Assembly: GCA_012031655.1 (NCBI GenBank)
Contig: JAAUUD010000007.1
Span: forward strand, 1 to 32,433
Direction of reading: 5' to 3'
Length of the DNA: 32,433 nucleotides
Source of the DNA: Anaerolineae bacterium
Lineage (GTDB): Bacteria; Chloroflexota; Anaerolineae; Aggregatilineales; J027
Below the pieces are notes generated by a model. It was not told where the DNA came from, made no database searches, and saw only the letters and a list, made by a program, of their open reading frames with translations. This document shows positions 8,089-24,143 of the stretch, piece after piece. The position numbers were made by a program, and so were the translations under genes. The stretch's first letter is position 1. Every line of letters starts with the position of its first letter.

Positions 8089-9428
8089 TCAGGCGTTCAG
8101 GTCTTCGGCCCCCTGCGCGATGTTGCCTGCGGCTTCATCTGCGCTGATGGCCCCGCCCAGGCATTCTTGCAGGTTGGGGACAAGGTACTGGTCTACCCAC
8201 TGGTTGTACCAGGGGGCACCCTTGGCTGCGCAAGCCGTGGCAATGAACACGGCGTCCTCGAACTGGCTGTTGTATTCGTCCAGGTCGTAGAGGCTGCCCC
8301 ACAGCTCGCGGATTTCTTCGTTTTCCAGCGCCTTTTGTGGCCAGCCAGAGGTGTAGGCGAACTTGGCGCGTTCCACGGCCATGAAGTAGCCGTCGTTCTG
8401 CGTTTCGCCGCCAAAGTATTGCAGCAGTTGCCAGCTCAGGTCGCGGTCGTAGCTGTTAGACATCAGCGACCAGAGGTTGCCATCATAGGTGGGGGTGCCC
8501 ATGGCAAAATCTGGTGCTGCCCGGCGGTTTCGGACTGGGCTGGGTCGTTGGCGAAGTTCATGTAGCGTTCGCGCGTGTTAGAGAAGATGTGGTTGCCGGT
8601 GGCATGGGCGCGAATGGCCGGGATCCAGCGCAGTTCCAGCGAGGCGGGGTCGGCCACCTGGGTTTCCTGGAAGGTGTCGCGCCACCACTGGAGCGTCTCG
8701 CGGGCCACCGAGCCGGATTCCATCAGCGGGTTGAAGTCTTCGTCAAAGAGCTGGCCGCCCTTGGAGGACACCAGCATGATCCAGGTGTCGCCGATGTGCT
8801 CCAGGCCCACGCCCGCCTGCCAGACAATCGGGTAGTCCATCACGCCATCCATTTTGGCCTTCAGCGCCATTTCGCCCAGTTCTTCCAGGCTGGTGGGCAG
8901 GCTCTCGAAACCGGCTTCTTCGAAGCGCTCGGTGTTGTAGATGTAGGTGTTCAGCGAGAGGAAGTAGGGCAGGCCCCAGATTTCGCCCTGATAGGTTACC
9001 AGGTCGCGCGCGGCGGGCAACATCTGCTCCAGGTAGGCATCCACGCCGGGCAGGTCGGTGATGGGCTGCACGATGCCCTGTTCGGTCCAGGCTGCGCGGT
9101 TGAAGAAGTGCATCACACCCACATCGATCTGATCACCTGCGATGGTCTTGGTGAGGATGCGCTGGTTGGTTTCTTCGATATTGGGTTGCTGGTCCCAGAC
9201 CACCGGCACGCCAAAGTCGCGCTCAAAGAGGGCCATGGCGGCGTTGATGGCGGCTTCGTCACCGTCCACGGTCCAGTAAACCAGCGAGAGTTCATCCTGG
9301 GCAAAGGCACGCCGCAAGCCGAAGCCGGGCTTCAGGCCCAGCCCGCCAGCCAGGGCCAGGCTACCCCCAGCCGCAGAAAGGCGGATAAAATCCCGACGAC
9401 TGAGGCCACGTAATGTTTTGTTGGGCAT
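8089..9428 (-). CDS. Sugar ABC transporter substrate-binding protein with Tat-like signal (one frameshift)
   Basis: RRDFIRLSAAGGSLALAGG Tat-like signal; family-1 extracellular solute-binding architecture. One T added at the - strand TTTT near 8506 gives HQIFAMGTPTYDGNLWSLMSNSYDRD. Confidence 0.85.
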
Positions 9429-10117
9429 GGTTCAGGCTCCTTAAAAGGTCAATACTTGCGCTTTAGGTTGGGAACTGCTGGTTGCGTAAGTCAGTTGAAT
9501 GATCGATGCGTAGCGGACCTTGCCTTTCCTGAAGTGCCAAGCACCCGTGCAAGTGGGGACCAGTGGGGCAGGGCCAGGCACCGCCCGCATAGGGCGCGGC
9601 GGGGTACCCCTGATCTGGATGAAGGCGGCGAAAAAAGGGGAAGGGGAAGGTGAGCAAGTTGAGCAGGCGAATGCACAAAACTATTTTCAACCCCGGCTGC
9701 AAGAGCGCGAAACAATATTCTATAGAAAAGAGTTACCACATCTACAGACGGTTGTCAACGCGTTGAAAGTCGAAGGTAAGGGGTTAGCAATCCAGGCGCA
9801 CGTGGCGTGAATTTCTCAGCATGGGTAGGGTTTGGCGCACAAAAGCGGCCCCCAGATGCCAGGGCCGTTCCCGGTTGCCGCTGGCCGCGCCCCCTGGTGT
9901 GGCTTGACGTGACGGCGCAAACCCAGTATATTTAGCAAGCATGTTCTAATTTCACAGCAGTGCCATCCCGCAACTTGCGGAGGGGCAGCGCCAACGGTTG
10001 CCAAACTCCGCAACCCGCCCACCCGCCGAGCTTGGTGTAACTTTGGGCTCGGCCTTTGGCCCGCTGGCCGTTTTCGCAGCAAGTTCCTTAACCCAGTCCA
10101 CAGCTAAGGAGGTCGGC

Positions 10118-12354
10118 ATGTCTGCGCAGCCCTTTATTGAAGTCCATGGCGCACGGGAGAACAATCTCAAGAACATTTCGTTGCATATCCCCAAACAAAA
10201 ATCACGGTCTTCACCGGGGGTGTCTGGCTCTGGTAAGTCTTCGCTGGTGTTTGATACCATCGCGGCAGAGGCACAGCGCCAGCTTAACGAGACCTTCACC
10301 GCTTTTGTGCAGGGGTTTCTGCCACACTATGGCCAGCCGGATGTGGATAGCATCGAAAACCTGAACTCGCCTATCATCATCGACCAGAAACGGGTGGGTG
10401 GGGGCTCGCGCTCGACCGTCGGCACCTATACCGACATTGCGGCCTTGCTGCGCTTGCTGTTCTCCCGCATCGGCGAGCCGCATGTGGGCCCCGGTTTTGC
10501 TTTTTCCTTCAACACGCCCCAGGGCATGTGCCCTGAATGTGAGGGCATTGGCAAGACCGTGCAACTGGACATGGACAAATTTCTGGACCGCAGCAAGTCG
10601 CTCAATGCGGGGGCAATCCAGCACCCGGAGTTCAAGGTAGGGAAGTGGTTGTGGAAGAACTACACGCTTGCTGGCTTGTTTGACAACGACAAACCCATCA
10701 ACCAGTACACCGCCGATGAGCTACACGCCCTGCTCTATGGAGCAGATTTAAAAGTGCCGTTTGGCGAGTTCAACACCACCTACGAAGGGCTGATCGAGCG
10801 CTTTACGCGGATGTACATCAAAAAAGATGCGGCGGCGATGTCTGACCGCAACCGCGCCATCTTCGAGGCTTTCACCAATTCGCAGACTTGCCCGCTGTGC
10901 CAGGGGGCCCGGCTCAACCAGGCTGCGCTGAACTGCCGTATTCGGGGGCGTAACATCGCAGCGCTTTCTGACCTGGAAGCCACAGACCTGCTGGTTTTTT
11001 GCAAGGGTTGGATGACGACCCCATCGCGGCCCGCGTAGCCGCCAAGCTCACAGAGCGGGTGGGGCACCTGGTTGATATTGGCCTGGGCTACCTCAGCCTG
11101 AGCCGCGAAACCTCCACGCTTTCCGGGGGGGAGTCTCAGCGGGTGAAGATGATCCGGCACCTGGGCAACAGCCTCACAGAAATGCTCTACATTCTGGATG
11201 AGCCGAGTGTGGGCCTGCATGCCCGCGATGTGGCCCGCTTGAACGCCCTCTTGCAGAAGCTGCGCGATAAGGGCAACACGGTGCTGGTGGTGGAGCACGA
11301 CCCAGACGTGATTGCGGTGGCTGACCATGTGGTGGACATGGGGCCACGTGCAGGCATTCATGGCGGGGAAGTCGTCTTCGAGGGCAGCTATACGGCGCTC
11401 CAGCAGGCCCAAACCCTCACCGGGCAATTTTTGGCGCAGCACCTGCCTGTCAAAACCGAAGTGCGCCAACCCACCGGCCACCTGACCATTCGCAACGCCC
11501 AGCTCCATAACCTGAAGAACATCACCGTCGATATCCCCACCGGGGTGCTGACCGTTGTGACGGGCGTGGCGGGTTCTGGGAAAAGCACGCTAATCAACGA
11601 GGTATTCCTGGAACAACAGCCAGAAGCCATCGTGATCGATCAGTCGCGGGTCACCGCCAACAGCCGTTCGGCGCCCGCCACCTATACCGGCATTATGGAT
11701 GAAATTCGCAAGGTATTTGCCCGCACCAATGGCGTCAGTCCGTCGTTGTTTAGTTTTAACTCCGAGGGGAGCTGCCCCCACTGCAACGGGTTGGGGGTGG
11801 TCTACACCGACCTGGCCTTTATGGAAGGCATCGCCACACCTTGCGAAATCTGCGAGGGCAAGCGCTTTAAGGCTGATGTGCTGGAGTACCATTTGCGTGG
11901 TCAGTGCATCAGTGATGTGCTGGACATGACCGCCGAAGAAGCGCTGGAGTTCTTTACGGAGAAGAAGATCCGCCCGGTGGTGCAGGCCATGAACGAGGTT
12001 GGCCTGAGCTACCTCAAGCTGGGGCAGCCACTCAGCACCCTCTCTGGCGGGGAGGGCCAACGCCTGAAGCTGGCCACGGAGTTACACAAGCAGGGCAGCA
12101 TCTACGTGATGGACGAGCCGACCACTGGCTTGCACCTCTCGGATATTGGCTTGCTGATGGGCATCATCGCGCGGCTGGCAGATGCCCAAAACACGGTTAT
12201 ATTGATTGAGCATCATCTGGATGTCATCCGCCAGGCCGATTGGATCATCGACCTGGGGCCGGAGGGTGGCAGCGCCGGGGGGGAGGTCCTTTTTGAAGGG
12301 CCGCCTGCCGCGCTCCAAGGCTGCGAACTGAGCATCACAGCCCGCTTCATTTAA
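10118..12354 (+). CDS. UvrA-like excinuclease ABC-type ATPase, short form (frameshifted)
   Basis: GARENNLKNISLHIP, GVSGSGKSSLVFDTIAAEAQRQ, CPECEGIG, LSGGESQRVKM...YILDEPSVGLHARD; second half GVAGSGKSTLINEVF, CPHCNGLG, LSGGEGQRLKLATEL, YVMDEPTTGLHLSDI. SD AAGGAGG precedes ATG at 10118. Indels near 10197, 10215 and 10995. Confidence 0.9.
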
Positions 12355-12404: not shown

Positions 12405-12790
12405 GGCAAAGAAGCCATTCTCGGGCAGTGCATTCAATCGCTCCTGGGCCAGACCTCCCCCAATTCCGAGATCATCTTCGTCAACGAGGAGCAAAAGCCG
12501 CTGAAGGGGGCCAGGATTGGCCTGCTGGGCATGGCCTAGGAGCGCGATACGGACGACGTGCGCCAGTCGCCCTCGCTGGAAGTGCAGCCGTTGTTGGCCT
12601 CGCGCGGGGCGCAGGTGACCTTTTGTGATCCTGACGTGGCCAGTGCACGGATGCACAACGGGGAAACGCTGCACAGCGTTGAACTCAGCATCGATTGGCT
12701 GCAAGCCCAAAATTGCGTCGTCATCCTGAAAGATCATCGCGCCTTTAACTACGCGTTGTGGTGCAGAACGCGCGCCTGGTGAAGCTTTAG
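12405..12790 (+). pseudogene. Chimeric remnant: GT2 glycosyltransferase-like start joined to UDP-glucose/GDP-mannose dehydrogenase C-terminal domain
   Basis: GKEAILGQCIQSLLGQTSPNSEIIFVNEE (GT2-like), then KPLKGARIGLLGMA*ERDTDDVRQSPSLEVQPLLASRGAQVTFCDPDV...VELSIDWLQAQNCVVILKDHRAFNY (UDPG_MGDP_dh_C-like), with an in-frame TAG (12537) and a 3' frameshift. Confidence 0.65.
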
Positions 12791-12872: not shown

Positions 12873-13391
12873 TCAGGCGTTGCGGAAGCGGACGACGCTC
12901 TTTTCGGAGTTCTGCCCGGCGACCACACCAAACTGCCGCAATTGGATTTCGTGGCCTATCAGATCAAAAGTAAGCTGCTGAATCCCTTCGTTGCAGCGCC
13001 GTTGCAGGGTGCGCCGGTCGTAGTGGACCAGCTCCGCCAGGCGGACCATTTCCAGGCCCAGGTCGGCACGGATAAAGCGGTAGTAGAGCAGGCTAAAGTT
13101 CTGCCGGTAGGAGTGTTCCTGAGCGAAATCTGCGATCAGCAGGTTCAGGGTATCGCTCTGGCTTCTGAGGTCCGCATCCCCAAGGGCCACCAACAAACGC
13201 GATGCAAGGGCCTGACGAACCGCATGCAGCCGCGCATAGCCACCCTTGAGGTCCCCGAGATGCTGCCGAACCTGGAGCAGTTCCATCCACACCTGGTCAT
13301 CCGGCAAGGGGCGCGCCTGGCGGATGTGCTCCAGCGCGGCGCGTACATGGCTGGGCTGTAATTCGGGGCCAGGCCCGGTCATCGGTTTCAT
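12873..13391 (-). CDS. Small helix-turn-helix-like regulatory protein (172 aa)
   Basis: LLIADFAQEHSYRQNFSLLYYRFIRADLGLEMVRLAELVHYDRRTLQRRCNEGIQQLTFDLIGHE resembles a DNA-binding-like module. Starts 6 nt after the upstream micropeptide stop. Confidence 0.6.
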   Translation of the reverse strand: MKPMTGPGPELQPSHVRAALEHIRQARPLPDDQVWMELLQVRQHLGDLKGGYARLHAVRQALASRLLVALGDADLRSQSDTLNLLIADFAQEHSYRQNFSLLYYRFIRADLGLEMVRLAELVHYDRRTLQRRCNEGIQQLTFDLIGHEIQLRQFGVVAGQNSEKSVVRFRNA

Positions 13392-13397
13392 TGGTGT

Positions 13398-13535
13398 CTA
13401 GCACCCACCGCAGGACTGAACCGGAGCTGTACTGTTGACCCCCGCTTCGGCGTTCGAGGCTCCATAGGCCGGAGCCGCCACCAAAACCAGGGCAATAATC
13501 AGGGCAATTACGGCACGCTTAATACGCTTTGACAT
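13398..13535 (-). CDS. 45-aa predicted secreted micropeptide with C-terminal CGGC
   Basis: Manual translation: MSKRIKRAVIALIIALVLVAAPAYGASNAEAGVNSTAPVQSCGGC*. KRIKR n-region, long hydrophobic core, APAYGA cleavage-like site. GGAG Shine-Dalgarno upstream of ATG. Below the length cut-off of the supplied ORF track. Confidence 0.7.
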   Translation of the reverse strand: MSKRIKRAVIALIIALVLVAAPAYGASNAEAGVNSTAPVQSCGGC

Positions 13536-13549
13536 GTTACCATCTCCGT

Positions 13550-13566
13550 GGCTATAGCAGATAGCC
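13550..13566 (-). promoter_or_regulatory. Small stem-loop directly upstream of the micropeptide RBS
   Basis: GGCTAT-AGCAG-ATAGCC perfect 6-bp stem. Confidence 0.4.
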
Positions 13567-13640
13567 AGAAGGGTCACATGCCGCGCCCCAGGGACCTCTG
13601 AGGCAAAACAGGGGGGCTACTGAGGCTATTCCAGAAAAGA

Positions 13641-13668
13641 AGCCCCAGCCTGTATGCAGGGCGGGGCT
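13641..13668 (-). terminator. Probable rho-independent terminator downstream of the TPR/wHTH regulator
   Basis: - strand AGCCCCGCCCTG-CATA-CAGGCTGGGGCT (10 of 12 paired) followed by TCTTTTCT. Confidence 0.6.
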
Positions 13669-13758: not shown

Positions 13759-15618
13759 CTATGGCAAACTCAGCGCTTCATCCAGTTGGACCATCAACTT
13801 CTGGTACCAGGTCTCCGGCAACTGGGGTTCAAGCTCTGGCAGCAGCTCTTGTGTGCTGAGCATCACCGCCTCGAAGCGCGCCTGATACTGGCGGCGCACG
13901 TCCTCCACAAATTCGCTTTCCACCGAGCGCGCAAAGGAGTTGTAAAGGCTCATCAGCTTAAAGCACAGCGCCAGGCGTTGCAGGGGTTGTTGGGTCTCGA
14001 AGAACTGGCGGTAGGTGTTGTCGAAGTCGTCGCCATCGTAATAGTGCGGGAAGTCCGGCGCCACGACGTAGTGCTGGCTGGGTTCGTCATAGGTGCACCA
14101 GTCCCGCACCTGGAGGGCACGCCGAAAGCTGGTCATGACGGTGTGGAAGCGCTCGCGGGCGCGGGCCGGGTCGGTTTCTGGGTAGAGCGCGGCCAGGATT
14201 TCGCCAATCTGGGCGCGGCGTTGCTCCAGCATATAGAGCAGCAATTGCATCCCCATCTGCCCGTAACGGTCCCGCTGCTGGAGCAAGGTGCCATTGGGCA
14301 GGTAAACCCGTGGGCCGCCAAAGGCATACACCCGCACCCCCTGGAGCGCGCCCTGTTCCTTGATGGCGACCTCAAGTTTCTCGCGCGTGTCTGGCGACCA
14401 CCACCCCCCCAGCAGGGGCAGGCTTAGCTGGTATAGGCGGGCCAGGTGGGTGACCTGCCCTTGCAGGAGAGTTTCTTTTTCCAGGATGTGGATGGTCGTT
14501 TGCACGGTTTCCCAGTCCCGGGCGAGCGCGGCTTGCCAGGCCTTGAGCAGACGCGCCTGGCTTAAGCCCAAAAAGCGCCCCTGGGCTTGCCAGCTTTCCA
14601 CCACGCTCACGCCGTAGTCCGCGCGCTGGTCGCCTTTTTGCGTCTCGATGAAGAGCTGCAACAGACCCACTTCCGGGCTCAGGCGGACATCCTGATAAGC
14701 GACGCTTTGTAGCTCTCTGAGCTTGAGCGTGGCCATGCTGAAGTCCTGCCGGAAAGCCGCAGCCCAGCCCGAAAGCAGCAGATGCGCGTACAGGCTGTGC
14801 AGGTGACCCGTGCTGGGCGGGTTCTCGAGTGCGCGCCGCAGCGTGGCCTCGTCCCCAACCCACAGGGCAATCTGGGCGCTGTTCAGGCGCACCTGCTCGC
14901 GCAGGTAGGCCTCTTTGGTGAGCGCTTCAGCATCCAGCAGATAGCCCATGGCTTTTTCAAACTGGCCTTCCTCCGCGCAAACCTCGCTGGCCTGGAGCAA
15001 CACGCGCGCCACAAGGTCCTGGTTGCCCGTAAGGCCGGCGTAATCTTCGGCTTCGCACTGGTGGCGCCAGCCCGCCAGGCGTAGATTTTGCTCAAAAGCG
15101 GTGGCAGCAGCGCGCAGGCAGGCCCGTGTGACATCATAGGCGCGTTCGGCCAGCGGCACTTCGATACGCTGCAAAAAGAGGCGCCGCGCCTGCTCGTAGT
15201 GCTGAAGTGCGGCGGCGGGGTCGTCCTCGCGGGCGGCTTCGCCATGCAAAAACGCGCATTCGGCCCGGTGAACGAGCAGCGTGCTGTTCTCTTGCACGCG
15301 CGCCAGGGCATAGCGCAGGCGGTCCAGGTCCTGCTCCCGCAGGGCCAGTTGGGCCTGCTGGAGGTAGGCCCGCGCCAGAAGCTCTGGTGCATTGGCCCAG
15401 GCTTTTTGGCAGACCTCCAACGGCACCCGTGCGGCTGCGTAGGCGCCCCGGTCCCCCAGGATTTTTGAGGTTTGGTAGGCCACCTCTGGATAGGTGAGGC
15501 GTGCATCGGGCGGCAGGGAGTTCCACGCATTCACCAGTAAATCGTGGGCTTCTCCGCCTGCCAGAAAGAAGTCGCGCGCCTGGTTTTCGAGATCATCCAT
15601 CGAAATTGAGGTGTTCAT
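13759..15618 (-). CDS. TPR-containing transcriptional regulator with C-terminal winged-helix/BTAD-like (SARP-like) region
   Basis: TPR-like helices over most of the protein, then GVRVYAFGGPRVYLPNGTLLQQRDRYGQMGMQLLLYMLEQRRAQIGEILAALYPETDPARARERFHTVMTSFRRAL (wHTH-like) and a helical C-terminus. 619 aa intact. Confidence 0.7.
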   Translation of the reverse strand: MNTSISMDDLENQARDFFLAGGEAHDLLVNAWNSLPPDARLTYPEVAYQTSKILGDRGAYAAARVPLEVCQKAWANAPELLARAYLQQAQLALREQDLDRLRYALARVQENSTLLVHRAECAFLHGEAAREDDPAAALQHYEQARRLFLQRIEVPLAERAYDVTRACLRAAATAFEQNLRLAGWRHQCEAEDYAGLTGNQDLVARVLLQASEVCAEEGQFEKAMGYLLDAEALTKEAYLREQVRLNSAQIALWVGDEATLRRALENPPSTGHLHSLYAHLLLSGWAAAFRQDFSMATLKLRELQSVAYQDVRLSPEVGLLQLFIETQKGDQRADYGVSVVESWQAQGRFLGLSQARLLKAWQAALARDWETVQTTIHILEKETLLQGQVTHLARLYQLSLPLLGGWWSPDTREKLEVAIKEQGALQGVRVYAFGGPRVYLPNGTLLQQRDRYGQMGMQLLLYMLEQRRAQIGEILAALYPETDPARARERFHTVMTSFRRALQVRDWCTYDEPSQHYVVAPDFPHYYDGDDFDNTYRQFFETQQPLQRLALCFKLMSLYNSFARSVESEFVEDVRRQYQARFEAVMLSTQELLPELEPQLPETWYQKLMVQLDEALSLP

Positions 15619-18007: not shown

Positions 18008-18130
18008 TCCGCTTGCGCGAAGGATTGGCACAACTACCCCATATCGGGCTGACCATGCCTGAAGACATCGAGATGAAACGCTGCGTTTTTCACCTGATTA
18101 AAAGCGGTTTACCAGAGGAGGAAGTTGCTG

Positions 18131-18580
18131 ATGACAGAGACCCCAACATGCCCGCGCTGTGGCAAAAAGGGACACAGCGTGGATGGCGCAACCGTAAAGT
18201 CAATGCTGGCGGTCAGCCTGCGCCATGTTCAAGACATCCCCTATCGTTTTTGCGCCAGCCCGGATTGTGATGTGGTCTACTACAGCGACGATGGCGCACA
18301 GACCTTCACCACACATCAGGTGCGCGAACGTGTCTATCAGAAGGCCCCAGAAGCCGATGATGTGCTGATCTGCTACTGCTTCCAGCATACGCCGGCAGAT
18401 ATCCGCCAGCGCGTTGCGCAATCCACCCAGGCAACCCTCATTGACGACATTAATGCTGGGATTCATGCTGGGCAATGTGCCTGTGATTGGCGCAATCCAC
18501 AGGGGAACTGCTGTCTGGGCAACGTGCGCCAGCTCGTCAAACAGGTAGAAGCGTCCACCATCACGAGTGAAGAGGAATAA
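18131..18580 (+). CDS. CopZ-type iron-sulfur/zinc metallochaperone-like protein
   Basis: CPRCGKKG...VKSMLAV...FCASPDCDVVYY (zf_CopZ-like), ICYCFQHTPADIR...INAGIHAGQCACDWRNPQGNCCLGNV (BFD-like 2Fe-2S Cys motifs). GAGGAGG SD. Confidence 0.8.
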   Translation: MTETPTCPRCGKKGHSVDGATVKSMLAVSLRHVQDIPYRFCASPDCDVVYYSDDGAQTFTTHQVRERVYQKAPEADDVLICYCFQHTPADIRQRVAQSTQATLIDDINAGIHAGQCACDWRNPQGNCCLGNVRQLVKQVEASTITSEEE

Positions 18581-18582
18581 CG

Positions 18583-18798
18583 ATGTCACTCAAGGAAGTT
18601 GGTATCGTGCGAACCGTTATTGCTGCATGGTGCTGCTTCACGCCAGTTCTCGTCATGCTGTTTGGTGCAGTCGGATTGAGCTGGTTGGCAGACTATCTGG
18701 ATTATGGGCTCTTGCCTGCACTAATCGTCTTTGTGGGTATCGCCGTCTAAGCTGTCTGGCGTGAGTGTGCCGCCCTTCGGCAAGGAGAGGAAGGCTAA
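18583..18798 (+). pseudogene. merF: MerF-like mercuric ion transporter with in-frame stop
   Basis: MSLKEVGIVRTVIAAWCCFTPVLVMLFGAVGLSWLADYLDYGLLPALIVFVGIAV*AVWRECAALRQGEEG*; CCFTPVLV and LDY.LLPAL typical of MerF. TAA at 18748 where the homologous reading frame continues. Confidence 0.8.
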
Positions 18799-21449: not shown

Positions 21450-24143
21450 ATGCCCGCACCGATCCTGACCACCAAGCTGCACCTGCCGCCCGCGCGCTCC
21501 GCAGGGTCCAGCGACCGCGCCTGCTGGCGCAGTTGCAAAGCGGCCTCCAGCGCAAACTCACCCTGATCTCTGCCCCGGCGGGCTCCGGCAAAACGACCCT
21601 GCTCAGCGCCTGGTTGGCGCAGTGTGCCTGCCCGGTTGCCTGGCTCTCGCTGGATGAGCGCGACGGCGACCCCTTGCGCTTTGTGGCCTATTGTGTGGCC
21701 GCCCTCCAGACCATTGACCCCGAGATTGGCCAGGTGATTACGCAGGCCAGCGGGAGCAGCCAGCCGCCCCCCGCTGGAGGCACTCCTGACGGCGCTCCTG
21801 AACGACCTGGCCGCGTTGCCTGGCGATTGCCTGCTGGTGCTGGATGATTATCACAGCCTGGAATCGCCAGCGGTGGACCAGGCCCTGGCGTTTATGCTGG
21901 ACCACCTGCCGCCGCAATTGCACCTGGTGATTGCCACGCGCGAGAATCCGCAATTGCCGCTGGCCCGGTTGCGCGCACGCGGCCACCTCACCGAACTTCG
22001 CGCCGCTGATCTGCGCTTTACGCCGCAGGAGGCCGCCGAGTTCCTGAACCGGGTGATGGGCCTGGCGCTGGCTCCCGAAGATGTGGCCGCGCTGGAAAGC
22101 CGCACCGAAGGGTGGATCGCCGGGTTGCAGCTTGCCGCACTCTCGTTACAGGGCCGGGCAGACCGCGCCGAGTTTATCCGGGCGTTTACAGGCAGCCATC
22201 GCTTTGTGCTGGATTATCTGGTGGAAGAAGTGCTGGCGCGCCAACCGCAGCCGGTGCGCGATTTTCTGCTGAAAACTGCCATCCTGGGCCGCCTGAACGG
22301 CGACCTGTGCGATGCGGTGCTGCAACAGCCGGGCAGCCAGGCCATGCTCGAGGCCCTGGAGCAGGGGAACTTGTTCCTGGTGGCGCTGGATGATAAGCGC
22401 CACTGGTACCGCTATCATCATCTGTTTGGGGCGGCGCTGCATAACGACCTTCAGCGCCAGCACCCCGCCGCCCTGCACGCGCTGCACTTGCGGGCCAGTC
22501 GGTGGTTTGCGCAGCACGACCTGCCATACGAGGCCATTCATCATGCCCTGGCCGCGCCGGATTTTGAACACGCCGCTGACCTGCTGGAACGGGTGTGGCT
22601 GGGCATGGATGAGTTCTACCAGACGCCGACCTGGCTGGCCTGGGCCAGGGCCCTGCCAGAGCAGGTGATCCTGAACCGGCCCATTTTGTGCCTGGGCTAT
22701 GGGCGTAGCCTGGCCTACGCCGGGCAACTGGAGCTGGCTGACGCATGGTTGCGGGTTGCAGAGCGCTGGCTACACGCCCCAGAGGGCGACCAGGCCACAA
22801 TGCGCGTGGCCGAAGCACGGCTTTTTGCGTGGCTACCGGCCATGCTGCAATGCTCCTGGACCTACAACGCCCTGGCGCGGGGCGATATCCCAGCGACCCT
22901 GGCGCACGCCCAACATGCGCTGCGGGTGTGGCCGAAGACGACGTGCTGAGCAACATTCAGGCGCAGGCGCTTTCTGGCCTGGCCTACTGGACCCAGGCGA
23001 CCTGCCGCCGCGAACCAGACCTTCAGCACGTTCCTGGAGCGAATGCCGCGCCTGGGGCGTGTTTCGGATTCAGTAGAGCTGGTTTTCATCGTCGCGGACA
23101 TTCGCAGCACGCTGGGGCAGCTCCACGCCGCATACCAGGCCTATCAGAATGCCTTTCGCTTGCTAGCGGACCTGGGCAACCCGGTGGTGATGGGCCTGGA
23201 GGACCTGCACCGGGGCGTGAGCGACCTCTACCGCGAGTGGAACCGCCTGGACCAGGCCGAAGATCATCTGCTGGCGGCGGAAGAACTCAGCGACCAATTG
23301 ATCCTCATGCCCGATTGGCGGCACCGCCTGAGCGTCTCGTGGGCGCGGCTCAAGATGACGCAAGGCGACCTGGAGGCGGCCCTGGGCTGGCTGGACCACG
23401 CCGAACAACACTACATGCGAACGCCTTTGCCAGTGCTGCGTTCTTTTGAAGCGTGGCGGGCGCGGGTCTGGATGCGGCAGGGTGCGCTGGATGCGGCCCA
23501 GGATTGGGTTGCCCGGCATGGCCTGACCGACGCGGGCGAAATCACCTACCGGCGCGAGTTTGACCTGATCACACTGGCTCGCTTGTGGTTGGCGCGGGGG
23601 ATTGCTGACCCCGGGGAGGCCGCCTGGTCCCGGTTGCACGCGCTACTGGCGCGCCTGTTGCACGCTGCGCAGGCAGGCGGCAGGCTGGGCAGTGCCATAG
23701 AAATCCTGGTTATGAGGGCGCTGGCGCAGGTGGCCGAAGGCGACCCCCCTGGCGCGCTGGAACCCTTGCGGCAGGCCCTCGACCTGGCGGAGCCCTCTGG
23801 TTACCTGCGCCTGTTTGTGGATGAGGGGCTGCCTATGCAAATGCTGCTGGGCGAGGCTGTCAAACAAGGGCGTGCTACGGCCTATATGCGCCGCTTGCTG
23901 GCGGCCTTTAGCGCCGCCCCGGACCAACCAGGCGCCCCGCAACCGCTCAGCGAACCCCTCACCGAGCGCGAGCTGGAAGTGCTCCGCCTGTTGGCCACGG
24001 ACCAGAGCGGGCCAGAAATCGCCCGCCATCTGATCATCTCTCTGAGCACACTCCGCACCCACATCCGCAACATCTATGGCAAGCTGGGCGTCAACAGTCG
24101 GCGCGCGGCGGTGCGGCGCACCAGCGAACTCACCCTGCGCTGA
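21450..24143 (+). CDS. LuxR-family (MalT/LAL-type) ATP-binding transcriptional regulator (several frameshifts)
   Basis: MPAPILTTKLHLPPAR start, Walker A SAPAGSGKTTLLSAWL, LLVLDDYH, TPR-like region, C-terminal LTERELEVLRLLATDQSGPEIARHLIISLSTLRTHIRNIYGKLGVNSRRAAV. Pieces are in ORFs 21533, 21816, 22745 and 23043. Confidence 0.9.

Follow-up and report, generated by a model that had tools for sequence, protein, structure and literature searches.

Within positions 1 to 32,433 of contig JAAUUD010000007.1 from an Anaerolineae bacterium (GCA_012031655.1), the stretch of 32,433 nucleotides (nt) referred to below as the window, a predicted gene for a secreted micropeptide of 45 amino acids (aa) lies on the minus strand between the gene of a 619-aa regulator and that of a 172-aa helix-turn-helix (HTH)-like protein. 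Our tentative view is that this locus represents a divergent form of a regulator-micropeptide cassette found widely among Anaerolineae, with peptide signalling as its likeliest role. It is called divergent because its ties to the cassette are the order of the genes, the type of peptide and the HTH neighbour, not regulator phylogeny. What the data show directly is how the locus is built in sequence, that the arrangement recurs, and that the peptides of other loci are under purifying selection.

The micropeptide gene (13398..13535, minus strand) opens with an ATG at 13535, preceded at 8 nt by a GGAG Shine-Dalgarno (SD) sequence, and closes with a TAG stop at 13400-13398. Its 45-codon product, MSKRIKRAVIALIIALVLVAAPAYGASNAEAGVNSTAPVQSCGGC, has a signal-peptide layout that was clear by a hydropathy and charge filter, with a predicted signal peptide at about residues 1-25 and a tail of about 20 residues ending SCGGC; the predicted exported tail, ASNAEAGVNSTAPVQSCGGC (13401..13460, minus strand), follows from a cleavage site placed by eye. 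A hairpin just 5' of the ATG (13544..13571, minus strand; fold -12.3 kcal/mol, z -2.3) pairs the SD sequence and may have a role there, and 6 nt separate the micropeptide stop from the ATG at 13391 of the 172-aa open reading frame (ORF; 12873-13391). An earlier sequence-only reading had described this ORF, with its CGGC end, SD sequence, upstream stem-loop and tight coupling to the HTH-like gene, and coordinates, folds and filter bear it out as a matter of sequence. The two genes (13391-13535, minus strand) also share a reading frame, in which the TAG and two codons lie between them; read-through of the stop would therefore yield a membrane-anchored HTH protein.

A fixed ORF filter, set after this case had been seen, required an ATG, an SD sequence, a length of 30-70 aa, a positive n-region, a hydrophobic core and small residues where cleavage could plausibly occur. 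The 45-aa ORF was its sole match in the whole window, and no ORF passed in 124 kb of related loci. Because sequence generated under a dinucleotide model gave one match per 60 window-lengths, the ORF is unlikely to be a product of chance.

The cassette was reached from the loci of homologues of both window neighbours, which were scanned for small secreted ORFs. Three striking loci came from this first scan (G053, G001 and G056:C26); at G056:C26 a SARP regulator, a secreted peptide (..ADGVPGGVHP) and an HTH-STAND gene follow one another on one strand. A search of the order with a profile built from the C-terminal ends of the regulators (A1) retrieved about 40 regulators at E<1e-60, mostly of about 1050 aa. 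These STAND-TPR-SARP regulators match TPR and MalT-TPR (PF17874) models, and 3' of them lies a secreted peptide of 38-63 aa, mostly followed by the gene of a protein of about 105 aa with conserved PWP, WW and RLDNLMGxALLD motifs, here called the WW protein. By record, the carriers include Thermoflexus sp., Ardenticatenia metagenome-assembled genomes (MAGs), Anaerolineae MAGs and Chloroflexi bacterium OLB13.

In a control scan applied identically to all regulators, 28 of the 37 cassette regulators that could be used had a same-strand, SD-preceded secreted micropeptide within 700 nt downstream, compared with 0 of 39 other BTAD regulators from that order (Fisher p=2.5e-13). When the four search seeds were left out, 26 of 33 cassette loci still carried one. 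Some of the nine misses were misses of the filter, including G053, whose peptide has a long repeat tail, and G061, which encodes a close copy of the G040 peptide. Furthermore, the pooled ratio of nonsynonymous to synonymous substitution rates was 0.22 over ten orthologous or duplicate pairs of cassette peptides, which indicates that they are translated and under constraint. Similar peptides were found at about 10 of 12 large SARP regulators in other orders of the class, often before a short NHLP-like gene. This recurrence across Anaerolineae suggests an undescribed bacterial peptide system. In the literature searched, which included few subscription journals or preprints, no paper linked SARP or MalT-like regulators of Chloroflexota or Anaerolineae to secreted peptides or reported a peptide system of this kind in Chloroflexota.

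Micropeptide genes also occur in tandem at several loci, for example four in G052, three in L253 and two each in G048, G087 and G154. The four in G052 (L184, G052:C3), 3' of the regulator, encode near-identical AGQASGGSG(S/N)PLP tails, and at G053:C216 (L212 / L052) the tail encoded 3' of the regulator holds three DGQAPGGSY repeats, like multi-copy peptide precursors. The WW protein (L245-L265, L201-L216 and the G loci of the profile search) forms a conserved, SARP-tied family that is unnamed in the libraries searched. It has a weak likeness to NHLP/Os1348 proteins (NF038399, E 0.003; PF14407, E 0.054), below the curated cut-offs; a relationship to the HTH domain was ruled out (hhalign probability 0.1).

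The tail of the window peptide ends QSCGGC, and Cys-ended tails were found in six cassette loci of the order (SSCCPGC, GHCSC, ACGMCSG, TACPGCG, AYCPGC and GVCGSC) and, outside it, at G194 (GGCGCP); such endings occur in 0.8% of random ORFs. The Cys tail type shows about four changes on the regulator tree and has therefore been gained or lost repeatedly; a restriction to one regulator clade is unsupported by these changes. At G106:C591, the regulator is followed by its peptide (SSCCPGC), a WW gene and, last, a solo gene for an HTH domain like that in the window. Together with G056:C26, this makes two loci where an HTH-domain gene lies no more than 2 kb downstream of the regulator and its peptide, against 0.003 expected (P ~5e-6, a rough Poisson estimate). 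The expectation that the peptide frame would be conserved upstream of homologues of the 172-aa gene held in gene order at these two independent loci and failed in sequence.

The window locus passes the cassette scan, having an SD-preceded secreted micropeptide on the same strand and less than 700 nt from a SARP regulator, and its SCGGC tail is of the short Gly/Ser- or Cys-ended kind seen in the cassette. The earlier proposal of a peptide-signalling-like cassette is supported indirectly but substantially by gene order in the class, because homologous or analogous regulators carry a secreted micropeptide immediately downstream, some of them CxxC-ended; signalling itself is what we infer from this arrangement.

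The 619-aa regulator (13759..15618, minus strand) was found by profile matches to combine TPR-type helical repeats with a C-terminal SARP domain (winged helix and BTAD-like), a more precise description than the 'TPR regulator' correctly recognized before. It has no STAND NTPase and is not in the clade of the STAND-TPR-SARP regulators of about 1050 aa. Its full sequence matched the SARP profile made from the C-termini of cassette regulators at E=1.2e-8, and a profile of its own clade, over residues ~427-595, recovered ordinary BTAD regulators at 1e-12 to 1e-19. The best Pfam TPR-type match was weak (TPR-like, 0.0026). The spacer of 223 nt between the regulator gene and the micropeptide holds no recognised gene.

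The 172-aa protein (12873..13391, minus strand) appears to be a detached N-terminal domain of HTH-STAND-TPR proteins. Its closest relative is a 757-aa protein of its own genome (C26), with 38-40% identity to residues 1-164, and identity to a G002 relative is 35-36%. These relatives, of about 750-890 aa, share the first ~160 residues, followed by a STAND-type NTPase and TPRs, and their weak Pfam matches to Xre-like HTH and sigma-70 region 4 are consistent with an HTH-like domain. This domain is present in 38 of 154 genomes of the order, mostly fused, and the window ORF stops just past it, without the STAND NTPase and TPRs of the family. When named genome contigs were first scanned with the 172-aa sequence, no relative emerged. 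Since the genome assembly is fragmented (70% complete) and the window shows apparent frameshifts, the gene could conceivably have been cut short by an assembly error, though a tblastn search with two full-length relatives detected no STAND/TPR remainder downstream of the ORF in any frame. The peptide was also considered as a partner of the fused HTH-STAND relatives and rejected, the partner in C26 and G002:C5 being a 259-263-aa protein. At both loci (L065, G000:C26; L066, G002:C5), the HTH-STAND-TPR genes begin 1-6 nt past the conserved gene of this protein, which has no Pfam match.

RRNPP receptors, of 250-500 aa, have been described from Firmicutes and their mobile elements, and the published criteria combine a propeptide of 10-100 aa adjoining the receptor gene, a Sec signal by SignalP, a receptor of 250-500 aa and a TPR HMM match at E<1e-5 (PMC10075063). 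As with Rap, Rgg, NprR, PlcR and PrgX, a small, putatively Sec-exported propeptide stands here beside a cytoplasmic TPR regulator with a DNA-binding domain, and the window peptide, at 45 aa and 223 nt downstream, falls within the propeptide limits. The regulators here, however, are longer (619 aa in the window, about 1050 aa with STAND in the cassette class), and the TPR match of the window regulator (0.0026) is weaker than the threshold, so the window locus was not filed as RRNPP. The C-terminal SARP domain and the extra HTH or WW gene are further differences. The RRNPP resemblance drawn by the sequence-only reading thus stands as an analogy and falls short of the full published definition.

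AfsR of Streptomyces is a SARP with STAND (NOD) and TPR domains, which restrain it until it is triggered, and it activates the afsS promoter (PMC10936776). The likeness lies in a SARP regulator with STAND and TPR sensor domains acting on a small regulatory gene. The gene afsS adjoins afsR and, to our knowledge, AfsS is not a secreted peptide. The SARP domain, in contrast, is N-terminal in AfsR and C-terminal in the window, no WW or HTH gene accompanies afsR and afsS, and the window regulator lacks STAND while its small partner has a signal-sequence layout. The cassette regulators share a MalT-like TPR sensor region (PF17874) with MalT-like STAND-TPR activators (LAL) but have a SARP/BTAD output instead of a LuxR HTH, and the window regulator is again without STAND. 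Precursor-like proteins of the NHLP, Os1348 and Franean1_4349 types, associated with ribosomally synthesized and post-translationally modified peptides (RiPPs), resemble the cassette WW protein by weak profile scores, but the WW and PWP motifs are conserved, no core region after Gly-Gly was seen, and the WW protein is absent from the window.

In the proposed mechanism, the gene of a SARP-type regulator, whose TPR region would be the sensor, is followed by a small same-strand transcription unit encoding a Sec-exported micropeptide and a solo HTH-like DNA-binding domain. The micropeptide would be exported and cut after its signal sequence, and its short Cys-containing tail would act as an extracellular signal. 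This tail, or an imported form of it, might be sensed by the TPR region of the regulator, either directly or via an importer or receptor. The regulator could then act on the neighbouring promoter and activate the micropeptide gene, an autoregulation suggested by the analogy with AfsR, with the HTH protein as a putative DNA-binding partner in the cassette. A broader version, which we consider possible if doubtful, is that Anaerolineae own a widespread form of peptide signalling built from STAND-TPR-SARP regulators, Gly/Ser or CxxC micropeptides and a WW accessory protein, and that the window holds a STAND-less offshoot in which a CGGC pheromone is flanked by its TPR-SARP receptor and by a solo HTH partner.

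A number of observations weigh against assigning the window locus to the cassette. On the regulator tree, its regulator groups apart from the 39 peptide-linked ones, in a separate clade with C43 of its own genome and G002:C29. Downstream of both C43 and G002:C29 lies a convergent gene in place of a peptide, and two other regulators of 659-663 aa likewise have no downstream peptide. No WW gene was matched in the window, as is also the case at G056:C26, and no peptide importer was recognised beside the locus. Between regulator and peptide lies a terminator-like hairpin (13641..13668, minus strand; fold -18.6 kcal/mol, z -2.3) followed by TTCTTTT, which suggests that the two are on separate transcripts. 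The terminator label is based on this fold and T-rich tail; a simple terminator scan did not list the hairpin. The 172-aa and 619-aa proteins were modelled from single sequences, with predictions (mean pLDDT 41) that were unusable for fold searches. Codon usage of the micropeptide ORF is not clearly gene-like and neither favours nor rules out coding: third-position GC is 0.60 vs 0.75 in genes, and its codon score ranks within the lowest 3-5% when set against gene chunks and within the highest 12-17% when set against off-frame chunks. Searches of 61 relatives, 397 genomes of the class, phages and plasmids returned no homologue of the micropeptide, or signal-sequence noise only, and none of 40 inspected ORFs with a CGGC-stop pattern in the family's genomes had a signal-peptide layout.

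The missing homologues, the low third-position GC and the usual lack of a peptide in the regulator's clade, together with an adjacent gene remnant (the UDP-sugar dehydrogenase fragment at 12558-12782), would also fit a frame that arose by chance or what is left of a decayed gene for a secreted protein. We consider this quite improbable, as such an ORF with an SD sequence is rare by chance, at one per 60 windows, and the one here is fitting in position, length and kind of tail, next to a homologous HTH domain. Still less probable is that the ORF serves mainly as a translated leader, whose translation opens the SD hairpin and couples to the 172-aa gene. The pairing of the SD sequence, the 6-nt gap and a GGTGGG motif, the likely SD sequence of the 172-aa gene, which lies 12 nt before its ATG and inside the CGGC codons, are all in keeping with such coupling, but a leader leaves unexplained both the signal peptide and the secreted peptides elsewhere, most of which are farther from the next gene.

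The main rival, which we regard as rather unlikely, is that the peptide is an exported effector (a Cys/Gly-rich antimicrobial, a metal- or redox-active or an envelope peptide) that the regulator controls and does not sense. Gly-, Ser- and Cys-rich tails, tandem peptide gene copies and the weak resemblance of the WW protein to NHLP/Os1348 RiPP precursors (E 0.003) would all suit an effector, and AfsR/AfsS offers a precedent in which the small gene is a target and not a signal. The tails, however, are often just 7-12 residues long, and an inspection of the adjacent genes, short of a systematic search, turned up neither a recognisable RiPP-modifying enzyme nor an immunity gene.

Elsewhere in the window, UvrA-like (9998-12354, plus strand), solute-binding (8089-9428, minus strand) and MalT/LuxR-like (21816-24143, plus strand) genes are each split over overlapping or adjoining frames, indicating frameshifts in the assembly or in the genes. 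The dehydrogenase remnant at 12558-12782 (plus strand), a UDP-glucose/GDP-mannose dehydrogenase C-terminal fragment (PF03720), lies shortly past the end of the 172-aa gene, on the opposite strand. At 18125-18750 (plus strand), a CopZ-type zinc-binding protein gene is followed by that of a 55-aa MerF-like membrane protein (E 4e-11), a probable mercury or metal transport pair.

If the cassette reading of the window locus and its relatives is true, the regulator-micropeptide pairs would be concrete candidates for cell-cell communication in an abundant and mostly uncultured class. The cassette peptides would then provide an input to activators of the STAND-TPR-SARP type, for which few natural signals are known to us, and the family is open to direct testing with synthetic peptides of 7-20 residues.
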